This document shows positions 9,555 to 44,304 of a DNA stretch of 44,304 nt, piece by piece. A program made the position numbers and the translations under genes. Below the pieces are notes generated by a model that saw only the letters and a program-made list of their open reading frames with translations, was not told the DNA's origin and did no database searches. The stretch's first letter is position 1. The number at the start of each line of letters is the position of its first letter. This DNA comes from Cladosporium sp. IMV 00045 (lineage: Eukaryota > Ascomycota > Dothideomycetes > Cladosporiales > Cladosporiaceae): the NCBI GenBank assembly GCA_001931905.2, contig MSJI02000264.1, positions 1-44,304 on the forward strand. The letters are read 5' to 3'.

Positions 9555-12500
9555 ATGGAGGCGGATTGGAATGAGGTATGCTCCACCTCCTCCTCCGCTA
9601 TTCGCGTACCATTACCTACTTGCCACTACTGCTGTTTATCATCTATCACTCCTCTTCCACATGTCCGTTCTTGTCTCGTTCCGACGATGCTGACAATCCT
9701 CTTCCGTCTTCTCTAGGCCGCGAGGACTCCTTTGCCTGGCCCCTCGCCAAATGCGCCACCAACTCTTGTAACAACATTCGCTTTTGATCCCCAGGAGGAG
9801 TTGCTGTGGGCTGGTAACGAATATGTAAGTTTTGTGTCTTGTTCGTGGCTTCTTACCTCGAAGACTTCCCTTTGAAGACGCGTCCTCTTTCATGTCTCTT
9901 CACTTTCTCATGCTCGCCTAGGGACGCGTCACCTCATTCTACGGCTCCGAATTACAAAAGTACACATCCTATCGCGGTCACACCACCCGCGATACTCGTA
10001 CTTCCTCCAACAATGCACCGGTAAAGCAGCTTCTCTTCTGCGATCGAGGTGTCATCTCGGTGTCCCTCGAGAGCGTTCATCTGTCCTCGCGGCGAGGTCT
10101 TACCCAATGGCATATAAGTTTGCCAGACATGGAGAACCTCCGCTGTATGAGCTTCACCGGAAAGGGAACAGATGAACTCGTCGTTGCCGGCTGTCAAAAG
10201 CAGCTATACCGGATCGATGTCGAAAAGGGCACTGTCACCGAGACGCTCACGCCCACGACGCCAGTCCCATACACCATGATGAAACGTGCTGGCAATTGCA
10301 TCTGTGCTGCTGCTCATGATGGATCAATCTACCTACTCGATCTCCGGACGCTGGCTGTCCTGCACAGCTGGAAAGCGTATGCCGGGTCTATCAACGACAT
10401 GGATGCCAGAGGCGACTACCTTCTCACCTGTGGTTGGGCTCCCAGGCATTACCAGGGTCTGGCGCTTGAGCAACTTGTGCGAGTGTACGATCTCAAAGTT
10501 CAGAAACCCGCCCCTCCCATATCCTTTCCTCCCGGAGCTGCTTTCGTACGCATGCACCCAAAGCTGTCGACAACATGCACTGTTCTTTCCCAGGCTGGTG
10601 CCATCTACTCCATTGACATTCTCAATCCTGACGTCCCGATGATGCGCTTCGCCCAGACTTTCGACGCTCAGCTTCGCGGACTGGATGTCATGCCTTCAGG
10701 AAAAGGCTTTGCGATGGCCGACAGCCATTGCCAGCTTGTCTTGTGGGGATCAACCTCGAAGATGCAATTCGTCGAGTATGGCAGACCAACTGAGTTTGCC
10801 GATCCTCAGTTGCCGGCTAGACAATTAGATTGGTCGCCTGACACCGCATTGAACTTGATCGGAATGCCCTATTACCGCGACATGCTGTTGTCCGTCTGGC
10901 CGAACAACCTAGTACACGAGGTTGGAGCACCACCACCCAAGGTTGACCCTGCCGTTCTAGCCTCACTTCAAAAATTCCAAGCTGGTGTCATATCGGGCGA
11001 TGTTGGCGTCAACCCGCGCAAAGGAAGACGCTATCACAAAGAAGACACTCGTACGACGCAGAAAAGTCGACGACCTCTGGCGCCGCCGAAGTTCCTGAGT
11101 GAAAAGCCTCGTGACGAAACACCGGAACCTGAGTCCCAGAGGAGAATGAGCGAAGATGTCGCCAAAACCTTCGCGGACCTCACTGTCAGCGGGTCGACTG
11201 TTGCCTCACATGTCCCGGTCTGGTATCAACCTGTCGAGATCAAATACAGCAAGTTCGGCATTGAGGACTTTGATTTTGGGTATTACAACTACACCAAGTA
11301 TTCTGGGCTCGAGACGCACATTGTCAACTCGTACGCCAATGCTCTCCTGCAACTGTATCGTTTCACACCAGTCGTGCGTAACCTAGCCTTGCATCACACT
11401 GCTAGAGATTGCGGTTACGACAATTGCATACTGTGTGAGCTTGGGTTTCTGATTGATATGCTTGAGAAAGCAAGGGGCAAGAGCTGTCAGGCGACGAATT
11501 TCTTCAAGTCACTAAGCAAACTGTCCAGCGCGACTGCACTTGCGGTGCTGGAAGAGCACACGGTCAACACACCCATGACCGTCATGATCCAAAATCTCAA
11601 TCGATTCCTTCTGAACACAATGGAAGAAAACAATCGACTGATCACCGGCAGTTCAGAACAGACGCAGTTTGCGTTTGGCACCACTGGATACGCCTTGAGC
11701 CAATGCGGACATTGCAACTATGAAGCCTCCCAGCCGAAGATATCATATTGCCACGATCTGGTATATCCACCAAAGATGCCACCCAAGCAATCTCCCCGTG
11801 CAATGCGACAGTACTTCTCCCAGGTACTGAAAGCATCTATTGAACGATGTGACATACAACGCGGCTGGTGTTCAAGATGTCAAGGCTACAAGCCCATCAC
11901 TTCACGCAGGGTCGTACACTCTGTGCCTGCGGTATTAATGTTGAACACTGCCATACACACACCCGAAGCCAAACAGCTCTGGGCCATGCCGGGGTTCCTA
12001 CCCAAAGAAGTGGGCGTAATCGTTAAGGACGGTTTGCTCTACTGCTATGAAGGTCAAGACCTGCGCACGCACCTCCAGCGCCGAGCCTTCGACATCACGG
12101 TGTATGAGCTGGTGGGTACGGTTGCCGATATTGCAGCCGGAGACACGAAGAAATCACACATTGTGTCGACCATCGATACCAACATATCCGAGACAGATGT
12201 TCAGCATGCCGAAGACTGGCATCTGTTCAACGACTTCATGGTCCGCAAGATCGGGCCCGAGGATGGACTTGGATTCGACGCGCGCTGGAAGCTGCCGGCT
12301 GTAATCACATACCAGGTCAAATCGATGTCCCACGCGATCGACAACAGCTGGAAGTCCCAGATCGATCCGAGAGCGTTGTATCGCAGCGTCGCTCAGCCTG
12401 GCCTTGAAACGCCTGCTCAATTCCGACCTTTCTTTGCGAGCGATTCTCTCCCTAACGCGGCAACGCACTGCGCAATCGATGCCGAGTTTGTACGCTTGCT

Positions 12501-13278
12501 GCGAGAGGAAATCGACGTCGGGGCCGACGGAGCGCGCACAATCACTCGACCTCACAGATCCGGCCTCGCTCGTGTATCTGTGCTGCGAGGCGACGAGCCA
12601 GAACTCGGCGTCCCTTTCATCGACGATTACATATCAATCGACGACCCCATCGAAGACTACCTCACCGAATTCTCCGGTCTCCGACCCGGCGACTTGACCC
12701 TCGGATCGAGTCGCTACGTCCTCGTCAACCTCAAAGCAGTCTACAAGAAACTCTGGGTCCTGCTCAACCTCGGCTGCAAATTCATCGGCCACGGCCTGAA
12801 GAGCGATTTCCGCACCATCAACATCCACGTCCCGGAATCGCAAGTCATCGACACGCAGGAGCTCTTCTCCCTCGGCTCGCGCGCAAGACGCAAGCTCTCC
12901 CTGCGCTTCCTCGCCTGGCTACTGTTGCGCGAGGATATTCAGTCATCTGGCCCGGAGGCTGGACACAATTCGATTGAAGATGCCGCCACGGCTCTGAAGC
13001 TGTGGCGGAAGTACCTCGAATTCGTCGACGCGGGGATTTTGGAGAGCATGATTGACGAAATCTGGGTCAAGGGCAAGGCGTGCGATTTCAAGGTGCCGGC
13101 GGAGAGGCATGGGAAGGGGAATGGTGGGTTGGAGGTCAATAATGGCAGTAGTGCGCCTGGCACTCCGAAGAGACGCTTGAGCGGTGGTTCGAGGACGGGG
13201 ACGCCTGGGGGGTTTGTGGGTGGTGGTGGAGTTCACAATAATGGTGGGAGAGAGATTTTTGGGAGCCCTCTGAGGTGA
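9555..13278 (+). CDS. PAN2: PAN2, catalytic subunit of the PAN2-PAN3 poly(A) deadenylase
   Basis: Three exons (9555-9575, 9717-9824, 9922-13278) give 1,161 residues, the usual size. The start MEADWNE and the following LLWAGNEY and GRVTSFYG match the PAN2 N-terminus, which fixes the small first exon. Domains: WD40 propeller (about 20-340), a linker for PAN3 binding, a USP-like domain without a catalytic Cys-box (about 500-870, with a Cys-pair finger region), and a DEDDh exonuclease (about 890-1,077). All exonuclease residues are visible: Asp and Glu in AIDAEFVR (about 896 and 898), Asp in GHGLKSDF (about 1,000), His and Asp in HNSIEDAA (about 1,058-1,063). It trims mRNA poly(A) tails in the cytoplasm. 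The tail after 1,090 is Gly/Ser-rich and variable. Nothing is missing. Confidence 0.96.
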
Positions 13279-32914: not shown

Positions 32915-33377
32915 TTCGCGTAGTCTGGTGATCGTTTGCGCAATGCTGTCTGTGCGCTAGTATCCTGGTCCACAGTGGGTTGTTCTTAATACATTCGCTC
33001 GATTCGATGCTCGGCTGTAGTAATGGGTGTTTTTGTTGCTACGCGATGCCTGAATGCGATCGCACTGATGCGTTCGTTCGTGGCCGAGGTCAGAGTGAGT
33101 TGGTAAGGCGAATGCACCCAATGATCATACTGGTGCTTACGCGCAAGAAGACCATGAATCGTAGAAGTCCGCGTGTGTATTTTATTAGTCGAAGGAAACG
33201 AGCCAGCGAGCGGTGTGTGTGCTTGTGTTTACGGCTTTGTTGACATTCGCGATAGTCAGCCGATAAGTCCGAGGATCTAATTCCGCACTTTCTGCCAGCC
33301 CAGACGAGACATCTTTCAAGAATAGACAGAATCTCCGCCAAGACTCATCAGGAGAGGCGATATACCAGGATAACCGC
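32915..33377. other. divergent promoter region
   Basis: It lies between the starts of the 483-residue coiled-coil gene (-) and the ceramide glucosyltransferase gene (+). No ORF or RNA gene is supported. Confidence 0.5.
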
Positions 33378-35051
33378 ATGACAGACGGAAAACCTGCTGC
33401 CGAGGCATTCGGCTCGGACACGGGTGTTCAGAGACATTCGCAGGTCGTGTTACTGCTGGCCACAGTCTGCCTGGTCTGGTATGTCGCTGTGACCCTCGTC
33501 TCGACGTTGGGATATGTTCAAATGTAAGTTTTAAATTGCGTGTATGAACAGGAAAAGTGTCACTAACAGGTATGCAGACGTCGGTATTTCTCCAAGACTC
33601 CACGAGAGGTCAACTGGTCAGCGGATGCGCCTCATGTAAATATCATTCGACCCATCAAAGGCCTGGAGCCTTCACTCTACGATTGTTTGGCCTCGACTTT
33701 CCGGCAGAATTATCCCAAGGATAAACTCCATATTCGGTTCTGCATATCAGATCGCGGCGATCCTGCTCTTCCGATTCTGGACCGCCTGATCAAAGACTTC
33801 TCATCCTTCGATGTACAGATCCTGGTGGAAGATGAGGACGTGGCGCTTCAGGATGGGAAGGTGCCACTTGGCCCAAATCCCAAAATCCGCAACATGAGTC
33901 GCGCCTACAGAGAAGCTGTTGGCGACTTCATCTGGATTATTGACTGCAATGTGTGGGTTGCAAAGGGAGTATGTGGTCGTCTGGTTGCCAAATTAGAAGG
34001 CCGGGGCGAAAAGCGCAAGAACAAATTCGTGCACCAATTGCCGCTTGTGGTCGACACCATGGGCACGACCACTCAAGAGGAGACTCGCGGGCTACTGGAC
34101 GACTCGGACAGCCAGATCCGCACTACGAGCTCTGCAAGCCACGCGCTTCTATCCGGAAATGGCAACCAGCGTACAGCCTCTTCTATCGGCGGTGGCAGAC
34201 TCGAAGAGCTTTTCCTGTCATCTGCTCACGCGAAATTCTACACCGCAATCAATACAGTCCTCATCGCCCCCTGCATCGTTGGCAAGAGCACCATGTTCCG
34301 CCGCCGCCACCTTGACAGCCTGACAGACAATGCCGGCATCAACTACTTCAGTGAGAACATTTGCGAAGACCACTTGATCGGCGACATGCTTTGGAGAAAA
34401 TCAGTGCCGGAGGAAATTGACGGCGAGAGCTGGGGCAAGCATGCATGCTGCTTTGGTGATCTAGCCGTCCAACCGATGGCAAACATGAGTGTTGTCGAGT
34501 ACTGGCGTCGGAGAGTGCGCTGGTTGCGGGTGCGCAAATATACAGTCACATTGGCCACACTTGTCGAGCCTGGAACGGAGAGTTTCTTGTGCTCTTTGTA
34601 TGGTGCCTTTGCTATCACCACGCTGCCGTTCTTCCAATCGCGCTTCGGCGTTCCGCCAACTTGGTCGACGTTCGCGATTTTCTGGCTCTGCAGCGTCTCG
34701 GCCTGGTGCATGCTCGACTGGACTCTCTACCTACTCCTCCACTCCGGCAGATCAATCGATGTCGACGACGAGACTCCCGCTTTTGCAAGACCACCAAAGA
34801 ACGGGCAAAGACGTCCTTTCGCGGAGTGGCTGTTTGCCTGGATCGGTAGGGAGTCTCTGGCATTCCCGATCTGGTTCTGGGCTATTTACGGCGGTGCTAG
34901 AGTAGAGTGGCGGGGTAAAGAGTTCTGGGTGGGAATGGATATGAAGGTTCACGAGCTCAAGAGGAATGATGAAGATGCACCCCATGGCGAGGCGAGTCAG
35001 AACGGTGACATCTCTCGCTCTTCTTCAAGGGGAAAGGATCGGTTGGACTGA
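33378..35051 (+). CDS. ceramide glucosyltransferase (glucosylceramide synthase, GT21)
   Basis: Two exons (33378-33523 and 33578-35051; 54-bp intron, GTAAGT donor, ACTAAC branch) give 539 residues. It moves glucose from UDP-glucose to ceramide on the cytosolic face of the Golgi. Visible features: an N-terminal TM (about 23-47), the start of the GT domain ([15 protein letters not shown], about 73), the first Asp region ([10 protein letters not shown]), the D-C-N motif (about 169-171) in place of the usual D-S-N, the third Asp in [11 protein letters not shown] (about 311), and the R-x-x-R-W motif (RRVRW, about 360). C-terminal TM segments follow (about 380-410, 415-440 and 475-495). A fungal-type insertion with Ser/Thr-rich sequence separates the second and third motifs. 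Glucosylceramide is important for hyphal growth and virulence in several fungi. Confidence 0.93.
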
Positions 35052-35867
35052 GCACATAAGCGATTATAGACGCATCGAATACGAGTTTCTGTATTCTAAC
35101 ATTAGGATGACACAGATAATCTGCTCTCTGCGGATTGAGATGTTCTTCTGGTTGAGGCTGTGCTGTCCTTCGGCGATCCTTCGCGTGATCCATCTGCGCC
35201 CATCATTTGTGACTGATCTCAAAATATATCAAATCTACTCTCCGAGATGCATGTCCACTCCACTTCTATTGGTCCACCATGCGTGCGCGTAATGGTTCAA
35301 CACACTTAAGCTCCATGGGCCGTTCCCGCTAGCCTTCAACCTAATTCCTACTCCTACTCTTTCGTATCCACATATCACGCACAACCAGGTCCAGAGACAA
35401 GTGCATACGAGCATTTGAACCTCATTTGGGATTTTTTGACGAGTAACAATCGATGGTCTTGAAGAAGAGATGACAACTGCCATGATCCTGCGCTATGAGC
35501 GGCACATAATTGCGAGGTCTCAGTTCTATCAACGGCGAGCGTTGACTTGGAGAGCATGTGATTCGCCAACGGCACCCTATCCGTTTTCCCCATCACAAAA
35601 GCCGATGAACATCCATCAGGATTCCCTCCATCTGTGCGTATGCGACTAGGCGTCCTGTCTTATACGAAAGCCCATCCGTCAGTATTAGTGCCATCAACCG
35701 TTCCTCTGAATGATGATCGACCCGCACACCTCCACATGTCACTCTGCAACCGTTCCGTCAACATCCCATGGAGAAGAAAGAGGCACACTTATACTTAGCC
35801 TCGATGCCGTCTGTCTGAATCTCGCCCTTCCACTCTCTGGTTCTCACGCGGCCTACTCGACTTCATC
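35052..35867. other. intergenic region upstream of the secreted hydrolase
   Basis: 3' flank of the ceramide glucosyltransferase gene, then the hydrolase promoter with a C/T-rich part at about 35815-35867. An ORF from 35710 overlaps the hydrolase in another frame and is a shadow. Confidence 0.5.
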
Positions 35868-37050
35868 ATGGCTATTCTCTCAGGTCTCTTTCTCTCTTTG
35901 CTATCCGTCTCTTGGGCACAGCAGTTCCAGGGCGATGTCGTCAGCGGCACCCTTCCTTCACAGGATGGCTCTGAGGTCGCGTACTTCAAGATCGACGACC
36001 CGTCCGGAGCCAATGATCACCTGACCCTCGTCAACTACCAATCGCTCGGTAGCGATGGTCGGCGATTGAACAACCAGAATGTCGAGAGAGCTGTCATCAT
36101 GATGGCTGGTCTGTTCAGAGATGCTGGAGATTACATGAACCACACGCTCTCTGCTCTGTACAAAGTCCCCGCTGGAGCCGGACCAAGCCGTGACAATGTC
36201 GCAGTCATCACACCAGTCTTCGCGAACGAGCAGGACGAGGGGGTCGCGTGGACCCAGGGTTCAAACGTCCTCGTATGGCATGAGAATGACTGGGCGTACG
36301 GCCGCAACAACATTTATCCTTCCTCGAGCACCAACACCTCCAGCTTCTCCGTCTTGGACCAGCTCGTTGCATACTACAATGATCAAAACACTTTCCCGAA
36401 CGTCAAGGAGATCGTTGTCGCCGGACACAGCATGGGATCTCAGGTATAAACACCCAAAACGATGTCCAATTCAAATCACTAACGATTCCCAGATGATCCA
36501 GCGCTACGCCACTCTCACCGACGTCAAATCCGGCCGCATCCCCATCACCTTCTGGCCCGCCGACCCGAACTCGATGGTCTGGCTGAGCACCTACAGGCCC
36601 ATCGACTACCCCAACTGCCCGGGATACGACGACTGGCCCGAAGGCTTCGCCAACTACGCCTCCGACAACCAGCAGTACGGTCAAGCCATGGTCGCCCGTG
36701 GCCGCGAAGCCCTTCTCGAGAACTACCAGAGCAAGCAAGTCTCCTACCTCCGCGCCATCCAGGACCACGGTGACTATACTGTCACCGGCTGTGGCGCGTA
36801 CACCACCGGCGCTGACCGTGATGCGCGCTTCTTGAACTTCATCGATTGGTTCCGTCCCACTTGCGAGTCTCCGTCGAACGGGAACTGCGATACTGTCGAT
36901 TACGTCGACTTGGGGCACGATGCCGCCGCTGCCTTCAGCTCAGCTGCTGGACTTTCGCGTTTGTTTTATGACAACTTCGATGGTCAGGGTGGCAGGGCTC
37001 CTGACTATGGAGCGAGGAGGCAGGAGGCTGATGATCCTTACCCTCGGTAG
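35868..37050 (+). CDS. secreted alpha/beta hydrolase
   Basis: Two exons (35868-36443 and 36493-37050; 49-bp intron with CTAAC branch) give 377 residues. A signal peptide (residues 1-18, ILSGLFLSLLSVSWAQQ) is followed by an alpha/beta-hydrolase fold. The nucleophile elbow is GHSMGS (Ser about 189), directly before the intron. A preceding strand (EIVVAGHS) and a late His in LGHDAAAAF are candidates for the catalytic set. Cys residues at NCPGYDD, GCGAYTTG, TCES and NCDT suggest disulfides in the secreted form. Possible N-glycosylation sites include NHT and NTS. The substrate cannot be predicted; the family is seen in filamentous ascomycetes. An esterase is the broadest safe guess. Confidence 0.85.
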
Positions 37051-37469
37051 AGGATGAGGCTTCATCTTTTCTCCTTCTTTCTTATTCCTTATTCTTTCTA
37101 ATTAATATTTCGTAGAATTTTCTTCTTCTTAGGTAATACAGAACATACTCATTTACACTCATGAGACATTGAGATTTTTGACCTGTAAATTGAAGAATTG
37201 CAAGTTTCGATACTGGTTTTACTGTCCTTGATCTGAAGCCAATTTCATTCCCTGATCCAAGAAGACACTTGTAACACTTTCCAATGGCGCTTGTATCGCT
37301 CTGAAGGAGCTTCATTCCACAACTAATTGTGCAGTCTGAATACCCTGAATCGCCAAGAAGTCCTCCGATGCTTTTTTTCCAATCGATGTGTTTTGTCCAA
37401 GGGATTAGCATACACCTTAACCAAAGATTCTCCATGAGGATTGTGTTTTTGGCTTTTCCCCAGCCATGA
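37051..37469. other. convergent intergenic region
   Basis: 3' flanks of the hydrolase (+) and zinc-finger (-) genes. A 138-codon minus-strand ORF (37082-37498) crosses the zinc-finger stop in another frame and lies in its 3' UTR; it has no recognisable feature. Confidence 0.5.
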
Positions 37470-39158
37470 CTACTCCTCCGTGTCATCGGCACTGTCATTG
37501 AGGAGCTTCATGCTCATACCAACTTTCTTCTGCATCGGGCCCTGAAGTAGCCCAGCGATAGCCATGAATGCGTCGTCTCCATCGCCACAGTGTCCATTCT
37601 CGATATGCTGGACAAGACCACTGAGGGAGGTGAACTTGCGATCCGGGATGTTGACTTCAGTGACAGGACCCGCAGCTCCGGTCGGGCAGTGGAAGAGCTT
37701 GGGACCGTGAACACCAGAATTGATGTGTTGACGCAAAGCGTGATCGCTCATGAAGGTACGCTCGCACTTTGAGCATGAAGGGAGACCGGAGTCCGGGTCG
37801 GCGCGCAGGGTTGGGACGGAAGAGCCTTCGCTGGATGTCGGGCTTGGAGTAGGCTTGTGGGAGGAGTCTAGGAAAGACCACTCGCATGAAGCGGTGGTGG
37901 AAGCAGATGGAGTGAGGTTGGCGCTGACGGCGCTCGACGCACTTGGTGTAAAGGTAAGACCCCTGCCTTCGCTCTCTATGATACTGGCGGTGGGAGTAAA
38001 CAGGACACCAGAGTTGCTCGAGATGTTGGAGCTTGCGGTGTCCACAGTGACGCTGGCGGGTGGCGTCCAAATGACACCCTCGTCACCTAGGGTGCTTGCC
38101 GTGTCACTTGCCTGGGGAGTCAGGACAACGCCGCTGCTGATGCTGCCACTACTCGATCCACTCACGTCAGGAGTGCACATGTGGTAGCTCTCCGAGTCGG
38201 ATATGCTTGCAAGATCGCCGTCCGAAGCGAGACCCTGATCGTTAATCTCGGAAACGCGGCTGCTGTTGAGGGAGAGATTGCTCAAAGATTTGGCAAGGTT
38301 CGAAGCCGAGTCAAGGGGGGCGACTGAAGACTGAGATTGACCACCAGTAGTAATCGAGCCGACGAAATCGGCATGCTCGGACATGGTGATGGTGCGGTCT
38401 TGATCGTACTTGTAGACGGTAGCATTAAGCTTGTCGCGCGACATTCCACCGGACTTGCATGTTGAGCTCTCCAAGTGCGCAACGAAGCCAGAGACCAGGT
38501 CGAATGTTCTACCGCAGGTGCATCTAATGGACACCAGGGGGTTACGGTGAGCCTTGGAGGAGCGTTTGTGAGCGTGCAAACCATCGAGGGTCGCGCAGAC
38601 TTTGTCGCATTCTTCGCACCAGAGGTTGGCTTCCTCTGCGCGAGCGATCTCGAAGGTAACGTTCAATTCATGATCCTCATCGGATTGTTGACCTGTTTCG
38701 TGACCCACGGAGCGGATGTGATCCATAAGGCTTCTTAAGGTCTTGAAAATGATGTTGCACTTTATGCAGCAGCAGTGTTCGGTGGTCTGTTGGTGTTCAT
38801 CGCGCTCGACGTTTGTGGCGAACGTCTCATAGCACACCGGGCAAGACTTGTGGTATTGAAGAAGATGCTTGTCTCTCGTTAAGGGAGAACGAAAGCGCAT
38901 GTCAGAACATATGCCGCACCAGACTCGCTTTCCATCGGGAGGGTGAGGATAGTCGATTTCGAGTTGCTTGCTCTTCCCGGAAGTGCAAAAAGATGTTGGG
39001 TCGTTTTGTTCCGAGTCTTGCTGGTGCTCTTGGAGTTCGTGGAATTTGCCAAAGATTTGCTCACAGTAGCACTGATAGTAGTGACCGTGGAGCACTGCAT
39101 GATTGCGAAGGGCTGTGTTGGAGCCGAAGACGGTCCCGCAGAGACAGATAGGCGCCAT
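37470..39158 (-). CDS. multi-C2H2 zinc-finger protein
   Basis: Intronless; the ATG at 39158 (MAPICLCG) gives 562 residues. The frame is open for 42 codons upstream, but that part is UTR-like. The N-terminal third has about seven C2H2-type fingers, some irregular: CLCGTVF..H..H, CYCEQIF..H, CGICSDM..H..H, CPVCYETF..H..H, CIKCNIIF..H..H, CEECDKVC..H..H and CTCGRTF..H. A Ser/Thr-rich disordered middle contains several near-repeats of the type (V/F)xTPxAS. Two more fingers are near the C-terminus (CSKCERTF..H..H and FHCP..H..C). It probably binds nucleic acid in the nucleus; the target is unknown. Similar multi-finger proteins are common and poorly characterised in Pezizomycotina. Confidence 0.85.
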   Translation of the reverse strand: MAPICLCGTVFGSNTALRNHAVLHGHYYQCYCEQIFGKFHELQEHQQDSEQNDPTSFCTSGKSKQLEIDYPHPPDGKRVWCGICSDMRFRSPLTRDKHLLQYHKSCPVCYETFATNVERDEHQQTTEHCCCIKCNIIFKTLRSLMDHIRSVGHETGQQSDEDHELNVTFEIARAEEANLWCEECDKVCATLDGLHAHKRSSKAHRNPLVSIRCTCGRTFDLVSGFVAHLESSTCKSGGMSRDKLNATVYKYDQDRTITMSEHADFVGSITTGGQSQSSVAPLDSASNLAKSLSNLSLNSSRVSEINDQGLASDGDLASISDSESYHMCTPDVSGSSSGSISSGVVLTPQASDTASTLGDEGVIWTPPASVTVDTASSNISSNSGVLFTPTASIIESEGRGLTFTPSASSAVSANLTPSASTTASCEWSFLDSSHKPTPSPTSSEGSSVPTLRADPDSGLPSCSKCERTFMSDHALRQHINSGVHGPKLFHCPTGAAGPVTEVNIPDRKFTSLSGLVQHIENGHCGDGDDAFMAIAGLLQGPMQKKVGMSMKLLNDSADDTEE

Positions 39159-39635
39159 GATGCGGGTCCTTTGCTTTGGCGGAAGAGATGATGCGAGGGG
39201 TAGAGATTGCTTTGAGGATGAAAAGGACGACAGGTTCATGCAAAGAATGACTAGGTGTTGGACGCGGTGTAGAAGAGAAGGCAAGTCGTGGAAGGCAGCT
39301 TTGCAAACAGGCTAGTGATTGCTTAGCCGACCGTGCGTTGGAGGTGAAGTGAATGCGATTGCCAGCTGCGAGCTTCCCTGCGATGCGTTGATCAACGAGC
39401 AGAGATCTTCGATTTCCGTTGGCTGGTACCTACATCCTCTGACCGCATCGTCTACACCTCAATCACTGCATCATCATATTTGGAAGCTGTAACATGTAGC
39501 CCTTGCCCCACCTCACGCAGTTGTTCTTGGGAGGACTCGAGCAGTGAACATGATGAGATTTGTCCTTCAATTCCGTCCAATCGTCCAACAAACATCCTGA
39601 ACCTCAATGATCTACGCAATCAAGATCGAAATACT
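39159..39635. other. intergenic region upstream of the zinc-finger gene
   Basis: Promoter side of the zinc-finger gene and 3' flank of the fused glycosyltransferase-phosphatase gene. A plus-strand ORF that begins here (39480) is a shadow of the phosphatase exon. Confidence 0.5.
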
Positions 39636-41483
39636 TCACTCACAAAGCAAGTTCGCTTTCACAGCCATAATGACCTCCTCGCTCAGTTCCAGATGACCCC
39701 TCAAGTACGCCCACACGCCTCCAAACTCCCTCTCCACCATCTCCAAAGTGGCAAGCATATACTCACCCCGAGCGCGAACGACATTCGTAGCCGATTGCAC
39801 ATTTCCGTTCAGACCAGGTTGAGCCAGCAGACGCTGTACGGCACCAGCACGCCAGTCAGCGTCAAGATCGTTGAGCGCGTATTCGTAGGCGATTGTGGCG
39901 GCGTTGCAGCCGGCGAGTGACAGGAGGAGCATGCTGATGACGCCGGTTCGATCTTTGCCCGCGGAGCAGTGGACGAGCATGGGCTCTGGGTTGGGTTGAG
40001 CGAGGTGTTGGAAGATCAGGCGGTATGCGGATGCTCCTTGGATGAGGGTCTTCTTGTATGCTTCGGCGTAGCCCTGTAGAACATGTCAGATTTTGCGTTG
40101 GAAGTCGGAAGTGGATGGTACACTCACCTCAGCTGCACTTGCATATTTCTTCAATCGATCGTCTCGCTGTTGAGGCAGCCACTCGCTCTCCTCGAAGACG
40201 GGGCACAAGATCTTCTCGATTCCAGCGGTCTTGAACATCCCGTCAACTTCGTCGAGTCGCTTTGGTGTCGCCACGCCACTATCAACAGGCTTATCGTGAA
40301 AACCTCCGTTGATCTCAATGTGGCTGCGCAAGTCGAAGACCTTCTTGACACCAAGTTGCAGGAAATTCTGCTGTCCGGCGAGCGTCATCTGGGAAGGCTC
40401 TCCGCTGCGGAAAACAGGGCCAGAGCGTACCGATCGTCCGTCCACGGTCTGGTAGCCACCAATGTCGCGGAACATGCGTACACCTTCGATGTTGACAAAT
40501 GGCGCGCCGGGATAGGGTCCGATCTCGGGGCTCTTGATGTTGGCGATTTGTCCATTCTTCCACTCGCGGACTGGCGGCCTCTCAGTGCACGCAATATCAT
40601 GATAGCCCTCGGTCCAGGGCAGGAACATGCGCATCATGCTCAGCGTAGCTTTTCCTGAACGGCGCATCGCCGTACACATGATCTCTTGCGCCATGACTGT
40701 CAGCTTCCTCAGCTCCTGGTGGTTGTTTTGTCGTGACCCCACATCAACTTGTGCGATGCCGCCAAGTCCGATCAGGTTGTATGTGTCGATGAGAGTACCA
40801 ATCTCGATGCCGTAGCTCACCGGGAAGGAGAGTTGTTCGAGAAGCCCGCGGCGAGCAGCAAATTCGCCAGCGAGAGGTTGACTGAATCCGGCCAAATCAG
40901 GCCAGAAGCTATTGAGAAGCGGCCGAGCTAGAATTTCAGTGACTCGGCCTCCATTGTGGCAAATGACATCTCCGTTGGCAGTCTTGAAAGGACGATCGAA
41001 GCAAGCGCGCACCATTTGGATCTCTTCGTTGAGAAGTAGCGGTCCGAGAATACCAATAAGATGTGCTGGAGACGGATCCTCGGTGTCGCCGTCCAAGAAA
41101 GCGACAATGTCGCCGTCGGTAACAAGGAGAGCACGCCACAAGGCATCGCCCTTACCGCAACTCGGACCCAATTCTGCGGCTATGGTCTTGCGTTGGATCA
41201 CCTCTGCGCCATGTTCGGCGGCAATCCTGCCTGTACCATCTTCTGATGCTGCATCGATGACGACCAGTCGAGAAACGACTCCGGCGTTGATGAGCGGCTG
41301 AACGGTGTTGGTGATCACGCCCGCGATCGAAGATGCGACTTCTCTCCCAGGTATGATGACCGTGACCTTTGTTTTGGTGCGATCGACGGCGTCGCGAAGG
41401 TCCTGAATGGGAAATTCTTGATGTGTGAAACGACGCTGTTCGAGCCAAGTTGGCAACGCATAAGGCGCCTTGGACGAGGCCAT
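39636..41483 (-). CDS. fusion: glucosyl-3-phosphoglycerate synthase-like GT (GT81) + PTP-fold phosphatase
   Basis: Two exons (41483-40128 and 40073-39636; 54-bp intron, GTGAGT..CTACAG) give 597 residues. The open frame before 41483 starts with TTG, so the ATG of MASSKAPYAL was chosen. Residues about 18-305 match bacterial GpgS: VTVIIPGREVASSI, LVVIDAASEDGTG, CGKGDALWRALL, a metal-binding DGD (131-133), HNGGRVTEILARPLL, PLAGEFAARRG, YGIEIGTLIDTY (Glu227) and a His in SRQNNHQEL (about 255). Such enzymes join UDP- or NDP-glucose to 3-phosphoglycerate. Residues about 325-590 are a Cys-based phosphatase of the PtpB/Y_phosphatase3 type: FRDIGGY, SGPVFRSGEP, VFDLRSHIE and the P-loop HCSAGKDRTG (Cys488, Arg494). 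Both active sites look intact. The natural reading is a two-step glucosylglycerate synthase on one chain, but the phosphatase substrate is inferred. Confidence 0.88.
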
Positions 41484-42047
41484 TTCGTATGTACCGGGCG
41501 AGAGGCTGTGTTCCCTCGATGTTGTGGGTGCTTCTTTTTCTCGTTGAAATGTTTGATCTGTCAAAGAAGCAGCGATGTATAATGATGAGTGTTATTGATC
41601 ACTAGACCAAATGCAGTGAATCCACCTGTATGCGCTGTTCGATAGTTGCCTGCTGATCGACGGTGAAACCTACATGTGAATGAAACACTTCCCTTGACTG
41701 AATCTGTCAACATAGCTGGGTGTTGCACATGTTGCCTCGACATGGTAGAGTCGGCATACCTGAGGAGCGCAAGCACAAGCCTGAGGGCCCAGGCTGCCGC
41801 CGATAAGACTTCACTTATCTCTCGCATTCCATACCTCACTTGAGTTGCTATACTGGCTCGAGCGGACCCCTTGCAGTATGCATATGCATGCTGTAACACG
41901 TGGCAACCTTATCTTTCATCGTGCAGTCAGTAGCCCAATTGGGATGTCGCAAAATCAAATACATTCGCTGGGGTATCATAATACTTGTGAAAACCGAGAA
42001 TCAACAGAATCTCAAACTTCCGGAGTTCGAGAGCCTCAACCCACGCA
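41484..42047. other. intergenic region upstream of the fusion gene
   Basis: Promoter side of the fused glycosyltransferase-phosphatase gene and the 3' flank of the AT-hook gene. The C/T-rich run usual in this window is weak here. No ORF is supported. Confidence 0.5.
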
Positions 42048-44304
42048 TCATACCTCGATAGCATCCTCCGCCGAATTAACCCTTCTTGGCCCTACCCACC
42101 GTGGGATCCTCTCGAGCCATAGCTCAATGTCCTCATCTCTCTCTAGGCGCATGCTTATGAAATTATCCCTCATCTCATTGGCAGTGATCACAATCTCCAG
42201 CACATTTCTGTTTGCCAGTGCCCCACCAGGCCGACATGCTTTGTCAATGGTCGTTTCGAAGACCTTGCTTTGACATGGCGGCACGCTGTCACTGTCCGGG
42301 AAATTCTTCAGGCAGTTTTGAAGCGCCGCCAACTCGGGCATAGTCCATTGGGCTTGTTGAACATGCGCTTCGTCTCGCAGGTATGGCATGCCATCCTCCA
42401 TAGTTTCGACAAGGCTCGCAGGGCAAGATCTCAGATGCAGCAACTTTTGTCGGTTGAAGGTATTCGCGACGCGGACGCGCATAAGGTTGAGATGGTTCCA
42501 ATGGCTGTGATTGGCATCCGAGAGCTTTCTGTGGCGCGCACGTCGTTCCATTTCCTGGGTTTGCGCTTTCACATCACGGACAGCCTCCTCCCTGGCGGCT
42601 CGCGCTTGTCGTTCCGCGATTTCTGCCCTGTGAACTCTACTAAGGAAGTCCAGAATTGCGCGTAACGGAACTGCGATCCCTTCATGGATTTTTCGTTTGT
42701 TGGCCTTCTCACTCAATTTCAGGAACCCGTCGTGCGCAGACTTCTCGCTGTCCTTAATGGCGACCATGATGTCGAGGACAGTACGAAGATGCTCCAGAGA
42801 AATTTGTTGGTTGCCTGCAGCTTCCACATCCAAGCTTTCAAAGCCCCTTACAATCGCATACAGAAGCAATGCGAGCGCCGGAATCAAATGCTTAAAGATA
42901 TAAAAACCCAGCTTCTTGTCTGAGAAGTCAACTTCAGAGCCACCGTGTCCACAGATCTTTTGAGAGCGCTTGAGAATCGACGTGCATCTACTGACAAAAC
43001 GGTCGAGTTCCCCTGGGCTGACGTCCGAAGCAGTAGCGCGGATCGAGCTGGTCAACATCTCACAATCCTCTAACAGCTTCTTGAGACCTGGGTTTTTGAC
43101 GCGCACCTTTGCACCATGATATCTTTTGGCGACAGTGACAATTTTGCGGAATCTGTCCCAGTGGCCGTATAGCCGATGTTGATCAGCTTCGTTGGATGGT
43201 GCTTCGTCATCATCGTCGTCGTCGCTCAGGGCCTCTTCTCCATGCGCTTCCTCCATCTCTTCATCGCCCTCGTCATCCTCCTCTTCCTCATCATCATGAT
43301 TCTCATCGTCTTCATTATCTTGAAACGAAGGATCCGTGGCTTGAAGATGACCATCCATCGCTTCAATGGCATCGGTCTGCTGCTGAGAGCCAGCAACAGC
43401 GTGCGCCTCCGAAATCGTAACAGGGGACTTCAGAGCTGCTTGAGAGCGCACAAAAGATTGCTTTTGTCGCTTAGATGGTGGCGTAGATTCTTCACGCTCG
43501 CCATCACCCCCCTTGGTCTCCACAGAAGACTTTGGCGCATGTCGTGTACTCTTACGACGGAAACCCGCATCCTCATGTGCATCAAGGGTATTGGAACCCC
43601 CCTCCTTCGCTCTAGCACTGTCCGCTTGCTTGGCAGCATTCTTTGATGGACGTCCACGCTTTTTCTTCTCACCCGTAGGTTGCTTCTTCTCACCTTCGGT
43701 AGCGGCTTTGGATGGTCTGCCTCGCTTCCTTTTGACCACGGGTTGGGGTTCGTCATTGGATCGATCCTGATGTACATTTGCGTCCTGTCCCTCAGCATTG
43801 GCGGCATGATCCAGTGTGACATCGTTGTCGGTGGTTTGGTCTGGTGGTTGGGCGCTGGATCCACCGACCTCAATTGTGTCCTCTTGATCAGCCTCGGCCT
43901 GGTCATCCTGTGCCGTTTCTATTCTTTCCGCACTCATACGCATTCTACGCGACTCCTTTCGCGCGCGAATCTTTGCTCCGGCAGAACAATTATCTTCGGC
44001 AATGTCCTCCACCTGCTGCATAAACTGTTGGTACTGACCCAGCTGCGCATCCGCCAACCGCTGGTCTTCTCTGGCTGCTTCTTCAAGGGTTCGAGACGTC
44101 TGCCTGGCATGTCTCTTTAGCGGAGAGAATGGTCGGGCACTCGAAGTATGTCTCCTTCTCCGTGGTAGTTCGTCGTCAGAAGGAACATCGTAGACATTGG
44201 GCCTAGATAAGGGATTCGGTGCCAGTCTCCGCTGTCCAGAACTGGTCTGCGGTTTGCGGGCGGAATAGCTTGGAAGGGTGCCTCGCTTTTTGCTATTCGA
44301 TTGC
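42048..44304 (-). CDS. AT-hook nuclear protein (5' end outside the window)
   Basis: The frame is open from the right edge to the stop at 42050-42048: 752 codons are visible (751 residues plus stop), with the N-terminus missing. The visible start is basic and Pro-rich and contains NVYDVPSDDELPRRRR. About residues 185-230 hold two AT-hooks (KRGRPSKAA, KRGRPSKNA) in a Lys-rich setting, so binding to the minor groove of AT-rich DNA is likely. A long Asp/Glu run follows (about 330-375). The C-terminal half is helical (LYGHWDRFRKIV.., ILDFLSRVHRAEIAERQARA) and ends with a W-x-x-x-E-L-x-x-L segment and ELWLERIPRWVG, which looks like a divergent Myb/SANT-type region. A chromatin or transcription role is inferred; no precise family is recognised. 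Confidence 0.8.
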   Translation of the reverse strand, partial: QSNSKKRGTLPSYSARKPQTSSGQRRLAPNPLSRPNVYDVPSDDELPRRRRHTSSARPFSPLKRHARQTSRTLEEAAREDQRLADAQLGQYQQFMQQVEDIAEDNCSAGAKIRARKESRRMRMSAERIETAQDDQAEADQEDTIEVGGSSAQPPDQTTDNDVTLDHAANAEGQDANVHQDRSNDEPQPVVKRKRGRPSKAATEGEKKQPTGEKKKRGRPSKNAAKQADSARAKEGGSNTLDAHEDAGFRRKSTRHAPKSSVETKGGDGEREESTPPSKRQKQSFVRSQAALKSPVTISEAHAVAGSQQQTDAIEAMDGHLQATDPSFQDNEDDENHDDEEEEDDEGDEEMEEAHGEEALSDDDDDDEAPSNEADQHRLYGHWDRFRKIVTVAKRYHGAKVRVKNPGLKKLLEDCEMLTSSIRATASDVSPGELDRFVSRCTSILKRSQKICGHGGSEVDFSDKKLGFYIFKHLIPALALLLYAIVRGFESLDVEAAGNQQISLEHLRTVLDIMVAIKDSEKSAHDGFLKLSEKANKRKIHEGIAVPLRAILDFLSRVHRAEIAERQARAAREEAVRDVKAQTQEMERRARHRKLSDANHSHWNHLNLMRVRVANTFNRQKLLHLRSCPASLVETMEDGMPYLRDEAHVQQAQWTMPELAALQNCLKNFPDSDSVPPCQSKVFETTIDKACRPGGALANRNVLEIVITANEMRDNFISMRLERDEDIELWLERIPRWVGPRRVNSAEDAIEV

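Follow-up and report, generated by a model that had tools for sequence, protein, structure and literature searches.

We found that a single gene at positions 39636 to 41483 of contig MSJI02000264.1 from Cladosporium sp. IMV 00045 (44,304 nucleotides; the window) encoded a glycosyltransferase (GT) of the GpgS/MpgS type joined in one chain to a cysteine-dependent phosphatase of the PF13350 family. It is fairly probable that the protein is a bifunctional glycosyl-3-phosphoglycerate synthase/phosphatase, likely with uridine diphosphate (UDP)-glucose as donor and free glucosylglycerate as product. A one-chain fusion of this kind in a fungus had been proposed in an earlier, sequence-only reading of the window, and it was confirmed by a 597-residue frame with matches to both NCBIfam NF010496 and Pfam PF13350. 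Papers are cited below by PMC number.

Gene structure

The limits given in the sequence-only reading were exact; the strand, on which that reading was silent, was found to be the minus strand. The motifs it had listed (GKGDALWRALL, DGD, GGRVTEILARPLL, YGIEIG and HCSAGKDRTG) were all present in the translation. The features of the gene were as follows.

39636..41483, minus strand: whole fusion gene, ATG at 41483, stop at 39636-39638, 597 residues
40128..41483, minus strand: exon 1, one open frame that runs from the GT half through the linker into the phosphatase half, residues 1-452, 1356 nt
40074..40127, minus strand: intron within the phosphatase half, 54 nt, GTGAGT...TACAG, after residue 452
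39636..40073, minus strand: exon 2, remaining phosphatase half including the catalytic loop
40560..41450, minus strand: GpgS/MpgS-type glycosyltransferase domain, residues 12-308
41190..41192, minus strand: Arg98, equivalent of Mycobacterium tuberculosis GpgS Arg101 (proposed base-discriminating position)
41085..41093, minus strand: DGD (DxD) metal/nucleotide motif, residues 131-133
40938..40952, minus strand: GGRVT acceptor-binding loop, residues 178-182
40494..40559, minus strand: linker, residues 309-330
39645..40493, minus strand: PF13350 Y_phosphatase3 (PtpB-like) domain, split by the intron, residues 331-595
39942..39971, minus strand: catalytic P-loop HCSAGKDRTG, residues 487-496

Exon 1 contained no stop codon across the GT half, the linker and roughly 120 residues at the beginning of the phosphatase. 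When splice pairs were compared, the chosen 54-nt intron gave the longest frame (597 residues), and the next best gave 569. Because the junction of the two halves lay inside exon 1, the fusion was independent of splicing, and the possibility that it was a product of splice choice was rejected. The intron site, after 'YASAAE', was visible in relatives as well: the pattern was found in 30 of 40 open reading frames (ORFs) searched, with no match in the other 10. Nineteen of the 30 left the spliced text exactly at this site, as unspliced ORFs would do, and 11 continued as spliced models. Rows grouping with Dothideomycetes, with Aspergillus/Penicillium (P0029, P0034) and with lichen fungi (P0122) were all among the 19.

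The synthase half

NF010496, the GpgS model, matched the GT half at 320.8 bits (cut-off 262, E = 7.8e-96), and PF13350 matched the C-terminal half at 189 bits (cut-off 22.2, E = 1.8e-55); with such E values, chance was ruled out. The two profiles placed the halves in the GpgS/MpgS family and in the PF13350 family, the latter half with its catalytic Cys loop intact. The NF010496 cut-off was also passed by all four other fusions tested (307.6-315.5 bits). This family is presumably CAZy GT81. PF09488, the GT55 MpgS family, scored 10.4 bits on the protein, under the Pfam cut-off of 27, and had no match when the genome was searched in all six frames. Among the seven solved sequences that matched the GT half, five were named sugar-phosphoglycerate synthases and two carried no functional name.

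The orthologue's structure model and the aligned residues showed a GT-A fold with DxD, the Lys114-Asp134-Glu232 network and the 3-phosphoglycerate loop. These numbers are those of M. tuberculosis GpgS, to which residues were aligned, and residue roles were taken from PMC2581804. GpgS Lys114 corresponded to K111, Asp134 and Asp136 to D131 and D133, Leu209 to L204, Tyr229 to Y224, Glu232 to E227 and Met269 to M264; Val186 and Thr187, which hold the carboxylate of 3-phosphoglycerate (PMC2581804), corresponded to V181 and T182. Across the 42 fungal rows, K111, D131, D133 and Y224 were invariant. E227 was found in 41, the single Asp being that of a second genomic copy described below, R180 and L204 in 41 each, V181 in 40, and T182 (otherwise three Asn and one gap) and M264 in 38 each. 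From family membership, we infer that the acceptor is 3-phosphoglycerate.

The phosphatase half

The intact loop HCSAGKDRTG fitted the pattern HCXXGKDR[TA]G. Its residues C488, K492, D493 and R494 were invariant in 12 of 12 aligned fusions; the His preceding the Cys was replaced by Asn in three and by Tyr in one of the 11 fusions other than that of the window. In the HCXXGKDR family the P-loop Asp is catalytic and the Lys binds substrate (PMC3091653). The closest solved structures to the phosphatase half were PtpB-like enzymes, and by analogy with these, Cys488 would act as nucleophile, Asp493 as acid/base and Arg494 in phosphate binding. The soil PtpB-like enzyme Pho16B was active on 10 of 10 substrates tried, including glucose-6-phosphate and glycerophosphate (PMC6409689), and because of this broad range, the recruitment of a PtpB-like enzyme to a sugar phosphoglycerate is plausible. 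No histidine-phosphatase family was found among the protein's Pfam matches up to E = 1.

In the same genome, PF13350 matches above cut-off were also observed on contigs C604, C804, C842 and C370. Precomputed Pfam annotation placed PF13350 beside alpha/beta-hydrolase families in other fungi (P0138, P0145, P0186, P0200 and others; Myxozyma, Ambispora, Ogataea, Rhizopus).

Predicted structure

The structure model was made for the orthologue from Cladosporium fusiforme (P0001), which also served for the fold searches, and not for the window's own protein. Its mean predicted local distance difference test (pLDDT) score was 91.0, with values below 50 at residues 317-320 of the linker, and both halves matched solved enzymes. 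In the Foldseek search 861 chains were matched, 219 of them at E <= 0.001; the step labelled VIA-align was a re-examination of Foldseek matches only.

Second genomic copy and selection

A second copy of the fusion gene was found on contig C747 of the same genome (49,867,185 bases, 954 contigs). It lay in a syntenic region, window 33144-44304 against C747:113500-124647, which was ~10% diverged: 33144-37242 aligned at 90.6% and 39269-44304 at 89.6%. Because the alignment extended on both sides of the gene, the region was duplicated or hybrid rather than a tandem copy; given also an assembly size of 49.9 Mb, the genome may itself be hybrid or duplicated. The coding parts of the two copies were 90.0% identical, the proteins 93.3% and the introns 59%, with GT...AG at the same places, and the second copy retained the frame, the splice sites and both domains.

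The ratio of nonsynonymous to synonymous divergence (dN/dS) between the copies was 0.034/0.405 overall (about 0.08); the GT half gave 0.027/0.494 and the linker plus phosphatase 0.042/0.316. Differences fell at the three codon positions as 24/15/140. Since dN/dS was low in each half, both halves are kept, and both are under purifying selection.

Distribution among fungi

The protein searches gave the best 120 of 725, 264 and 1077 matches, the first and third having scored ~8000 candidates, and the survey is a lower bound. Among the matches listed, the GT sequence and PF13350 occurred in one protein in at least 11 named fungi: Cladosporium fusiforme, Neodothiora populina, Pseudevernia consocians, Lecanora helva, Psora crenata, Aspergillus nanangensis, A. 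lucknowensis, A. heteromorphus, Penicillium sp. IBT 18751x, P. atrosanguineum and P. maclennaniae. The window protein matched that of C. fusiforme at 83%. The fusion was thus present in Dothideomycetes, the class in which the sequence-only reading had suggested looking for it, and was widespread rather than peculiar to one fungus, as it occurred also in Lecanoromycetes, Aspergillus and Penicillium. Taxonomic look-ups covered C. fusiforme, N. populina, Psora crenata and Patulibacter minatonensis; the class of Aspergillus and Penicillium and the placing of the remaining organisms are as we presume them to be.

Both catalytic cores were complete in seven of the 11 named fungi. P0022 and P0029 ended ahead of the Cys loop, P0023 was without the GGRVT stretch and P0059 without GKGD, all of which are probably gene-model faults. 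A phosphatase match was found in 35 of the 42 fungal-clade ORFs, all 11 named fungi included (again among the matches listed), and the Cys loop was reached in 13 of these 35. In all, 49 ORFs were examined for the phosphatase, 37 with and 12 without it; the seven outside the 42 (P0046, P0077, P0221-P0224 and P0226) were not placed on a tree.

Origin of the two halves

The sequence-only reading had said nothing of the ancestry of the GT half, which was found to group inside a bacterial family. In a quick tree of 105 GT rows, taken from 202, the fungal rows stood together beside six Patulibacter-type rows. A later, careful tree comprised 66 GT halves; its 22 fungal rows formed one clade (100/99), and these together with eight Patulibacter-type rows formed a clade at 100/100. 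P0038, P0039, P0040 and P0043 had been labelled bacterial at first and were moved to the fungal set after the 105-row tree; P0026 and P0059 were counted among the 42 fungal-clade ORFs and were absent from the GT trees.

The phosphatase halves fell among solo PF13350 proteins of fungi. The careful tree, with 48 rows, united the 15 fusion rows in one clade whose support (82/81) is not strong; in the quick tree of 116 rows, the fusions fell in two groups over weak forks, a point against a single fusion event. The two trees differed in that FUS_P0025, FUS_P0023 and most solo rows were dropped from the smaller one. P0122 was counted as a fusion piece from its place in the 116-row tree, and its sequence starts with GT residues.

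These groupings suggest that fungi probably took up a bacterial synthase of thermoleophilian, Patulibacter-like type, which became fused with a fungal phosphatase, perhaps in a single event. The most economical history would be that an ancestor of these ascomycetes received the synthase once, that it fused once with a phosphatase already present, and that much loss followed; fungus-to-fungus transfer may be an alternative. No GpgS/MpgS-type GT with PF13350 in one bacterial protein was found among the matches listed. In bacteria, a GpgS-type domain was observed behind a second GT2-type stretch (P0041, P0042, P0045, P0053, P0063, P0075; also L012), in proteins mostly of ~550 residues, and such a pair perhaps makes a disaccharide-glycerate.

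Proposed function and alternative readings

In the proposed mechanism, the N-terminal GpgS/MpgS-type domain would move a sugar, most likely glucose from UDP-glucose, onto 3-phosphoglycerate, and the C-terminal Cys-dependent PF13350 domain would strip the phosphate and draw the pathway towards free glucosylglycerate. We infer action of the phosphatase on the synthase product from the fusion itself, from the phosphatase required in this pathway (PMC2581804) and from the precedent of MgsD (PMC8490865). By analogy, the enzyme would probably be cytosolic, and its physiological role is likewise suggested by analogy and may lie in osmotic or desiccation tolerance, as supposed in the sequence-only reading: glucosylglycerate is a microbial osmolyte (PMC11009771) and, in passages that mention Mycobacterium only, a nitrogen-stress metabolite of mycobacteria (PMC3918151).

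Several observations weigh against this reading. Seven of the 42 fungal-clade ORFs had no phosphatase match, and of the seven ORFs outside the 42, two had one and five did not. Among the unmatched seven, P0033 and P0036 ended in residues resembling the start of the phosphatase and five ended in or near the linker. Most of the ORFs with no phosphatase match look cut short; given these ORFs, stand-alone fungal GT genes may also exist. The PtpB-like enzymes described in the cited passages act on phosphoinositides and peptides (PMC3091653) or broadly (PMC6409689), and the passages of these papers name no activity on a sugar phosphoglycerate. Near bacterial synthase genes, no PF13350-like frame was found at E <= 1 in 5875 frames from 80 loci, many of them shorter than the 8-kb flanks, with a profile that was derived from the domain of the window and from solo proteins and had no independent positive control; bacteria therefore give no context support for the pairing. 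At four of the bacterial loci, with high-GC flanks, naive gene picking gave overlapping frames. The P0001 model had a predicted template modelling (pTM) score of 0.68, so that the relative placing of the two halves is unsure. Furthermore, NF010496 gave 357.8 bits to a Rubrobacter protein placed beside R. xylanophilus MpgS in the 105-row tree and so cannot separate glucose from mannose. The family model is blind to the donor sugar, and the label 'GpgS-type' of the sequence-only reading holds for membership of the GpgS/MpgS family and not for glucose specificity. The closest solved GT by score was the Rubrobacter MpgS, named for mannose.

The same bifunctional logic could accordingly operate with guanosine diphosphate (GDP)-mannose, or with both sugars, giving mannosylglycerate or a mixture. 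We consider this unlikely, though it deserves attention. At the position of Arg98, all 42 fungal rows had Arg, like the GpgS of M. hassiacum and M. tuberculosis, whereas 8 of 8 Rubrobacter rows had Glu. The residue was Gln in 6 of 6 Patulibacter-type rows (five distinct) and Arg in none of the 63 bacterial rows; the 55 non-Rubrobacter bacterial rows, with the Patulibacter-type six included, had Glu in 29, Gln in 23, Asp in 2 and Pro in 1. The simplest view would be that Arg98 arose on the stem of the fungal clade. In M. tuberculosis GpgS, Arg101 stands in for the guanine-binding Gln66 of MgS (PMC2581804), and because Arg98 replaces this Gln as in mycobacterial GpgS, UDP-glucose is favoured as donor and GDP-mannose disfavoured. 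Resting on this one residue, the assignment is a hint and not a rule, since the donors of most of the compared bacterial enzymes, which mostly have Glu or Gln there, are unknown. In the second genomic copy (L002), the network Glu of YGIEIG was Asp (YGIDIG), as in MgS, which carries Asp at the place of GpgS Glu232 (PMC2581804). The two genomic copies may differ in donor handling through this residue.

The destination of the product and the substrate of the phosphatase were also weighed. Free glycosylglycerate might be the starter of a larger glycan or a nitrogen-starvation metabolite rather than a stress solute, which we hold to be improbable. GpgS is a key enzyme of mycobacterial methylglucose lipopolysaccharide synthesis (PMC2581804), glucosylglycerate accumulates on nitrogen starvation (PMC6608630, PMC3918151), and the named hosts, among the matches listed, were ordinary moulds as well as lichen fungi. 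Against a glycan, the sole transferase found by Pfam among nine other frames of the window was Glyco_transf_21, and no glycan-building cluster was recognised there. It is also improbable, though a serious alternative, that the substrate of the phosphatase half is a phosphoinositide or a phosphoprotein and that this half serves to regulate or tether the GT, in which case glycosyl-3-phosphoglycerate would be released or another phosphatase needed. Atypical lipid phosphatases are marked by HCXXGKDR[TA]G, and phosphoinositides and phosphopeptides are the substrates of those PtpB-like members that have been assayed (PMC3091653); the occurrence of PF13350 beside alpha/beta-hydrolase families shows that it is not confined to sugar-phosphate chemistry. 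However, the fusion was maintained across ascomycete classes, and no lipid-binding family was found among the protein's Pfam matches. We give almost no credence to an artefact of assembly, annotation or contamination, or to a decaying gene. Parts were indeed missing from the gene models of some relatives (the four incomplete ones above), but the junction lay in one exon, dN/dS was low, and assembly chimera and contamination were rejected by the syntenic second copy, ~90% identical on both sides, and by the intron site common to relatives.

Beyond the bifunctional synthase/phosphatase itself, we put forward a wider proposal, tentatively and at somewhat less than even chances. Many leotiomycete-lineage fungi would possess a one-chain glucosylglycerate synthase, in which a GpgS gained horizontally from Thermoleophilia is combined with a PtpB-like phosphatase of fungal origin that has taken on a sugar-phosphoglycerate as substrate, with glucosylglycerate as an unrecognised metabolite of moulds and lichen fungi. 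HAD and histidine-phosphatase types serve the last step of the pathway elsewhere, and PF13350 would be a third type. If true, moulds and lichen fungi would join the organisms with a glucosylglycerate pathway, and one gene would be enough to make the compound; a phosphatase of a new type would act in this chemistry, and the gene would clearly exemplify capture from bacteria with later fusion of domains.

Other frames of the window

The only stretch in 33144-44304 that did not align to C747 at E <= 1e-10 was 37243-39268, whose place there was occupied by ~2 kb. It contained a C2H2 zinc-finger frame of 604 aa (37470-39284, minus strand), which may be a fast-changing or replaced gene. The Glyco_transf_21 frame found with Pfam (33687-35051, plus strand) is presumably ceramide-glucosyltransferase-like. 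A PAN2 deadenylase-like frame with PAN2_N, UCH_1 and RNase_T was located at 10060-13278 (plus strand).

Comparison with known systems

GpgS of Mycobacterium (PDB 7pdo, 4y6n), ~34-37% identical in alignments, is a stand-alone enzyme, unlike the fungal fusion. Its ribose-binding Glu54 was Val in the fusion, and His258 was Asn, with a His two residues further; both replacements were like those in Rubrobacter rows. R. xylanophilus MpgS (PDB 3f1y, 3o3p) was the best-scoring solved relative, 40% identical to the P0001 model, and shared with the fusion the RQNxH loop and the Val for Glu54; it differed in being stand-alone and in having Glu where the fusion has Arg98. Among the matches listed, the bacterial proteins nearest to the fungal GT half were of Patulibacter type (Thermoleophilia), at 55-56% identity. 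Of these and neighbouring groups, 6 of 6 proteins scanned had the second GT2-type stretch and no phosphatase family. Fungal solo PF13350 phosphatases and the PtpB-like atypical lipid phosphatases carry no fused synthase. The mycobacterial glucosyl-3-phosphoglycerate phosphatase GpgP belongs, as we take it, to the histidine-phosphatase family, whereas the phosphatase of the fusion was PF13350 with a Cys loop.

No description of a GpgS-phosphatase fusion or of fungal glucosylglycerate was found in the literature searched, which comprised mostly papers free of subscription and so points only weakly to absence. Sugar-phosphoglycerate synthases as such have been published for fungi: two GT55 mannosyl-3-phosphoglycerate synthases, of a family different from that of the fusion, appear in a genome table of Phomopsis longicolla (PMC5584002). 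Sordaria macrospora SMAC_02065.3 has been reported as a sugar-phosphoglycerate synthase with a speculated origin in Actinomycetales, in a passage that names neither its family nor its fusion state (PMC6794485); no protein so named from Sordaria was among the matches listed. A 2024 review of glucosylglycerate synthesis gave no hit for fungi, eukaryotes or a phosphatase (PMC11009771), and a glucosyl-3-phosphoglycerate synthase transcript was reported in desiccated roots in a passage that names no fungus (PMC11985526).

A precedent is MgsD of Dehalococcoides mccartyi, which, as proposed for the fusion, combines transfer from a nucleoside diphosphate (NDP)-sugar to 3-phosphoglycerate with phosphate removal in one chain (PMC8490865). 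The likeness is in architecture only. With PF09488 below its cut-off, a GT55-type MgsD homologue was rejected; for that reason the protein may work like MgsD and is not filed as one. The halves of MgsD are, we presume, GT55-type and HAD-type, unlike the GpgS/MpgS-type and Cys-phosphatase halves of the fusion. A one-chain sugar-phosphoglycerate synthase/phosphatase is accordingly known in kind, MgsD-like, and this combination of parts may be new.
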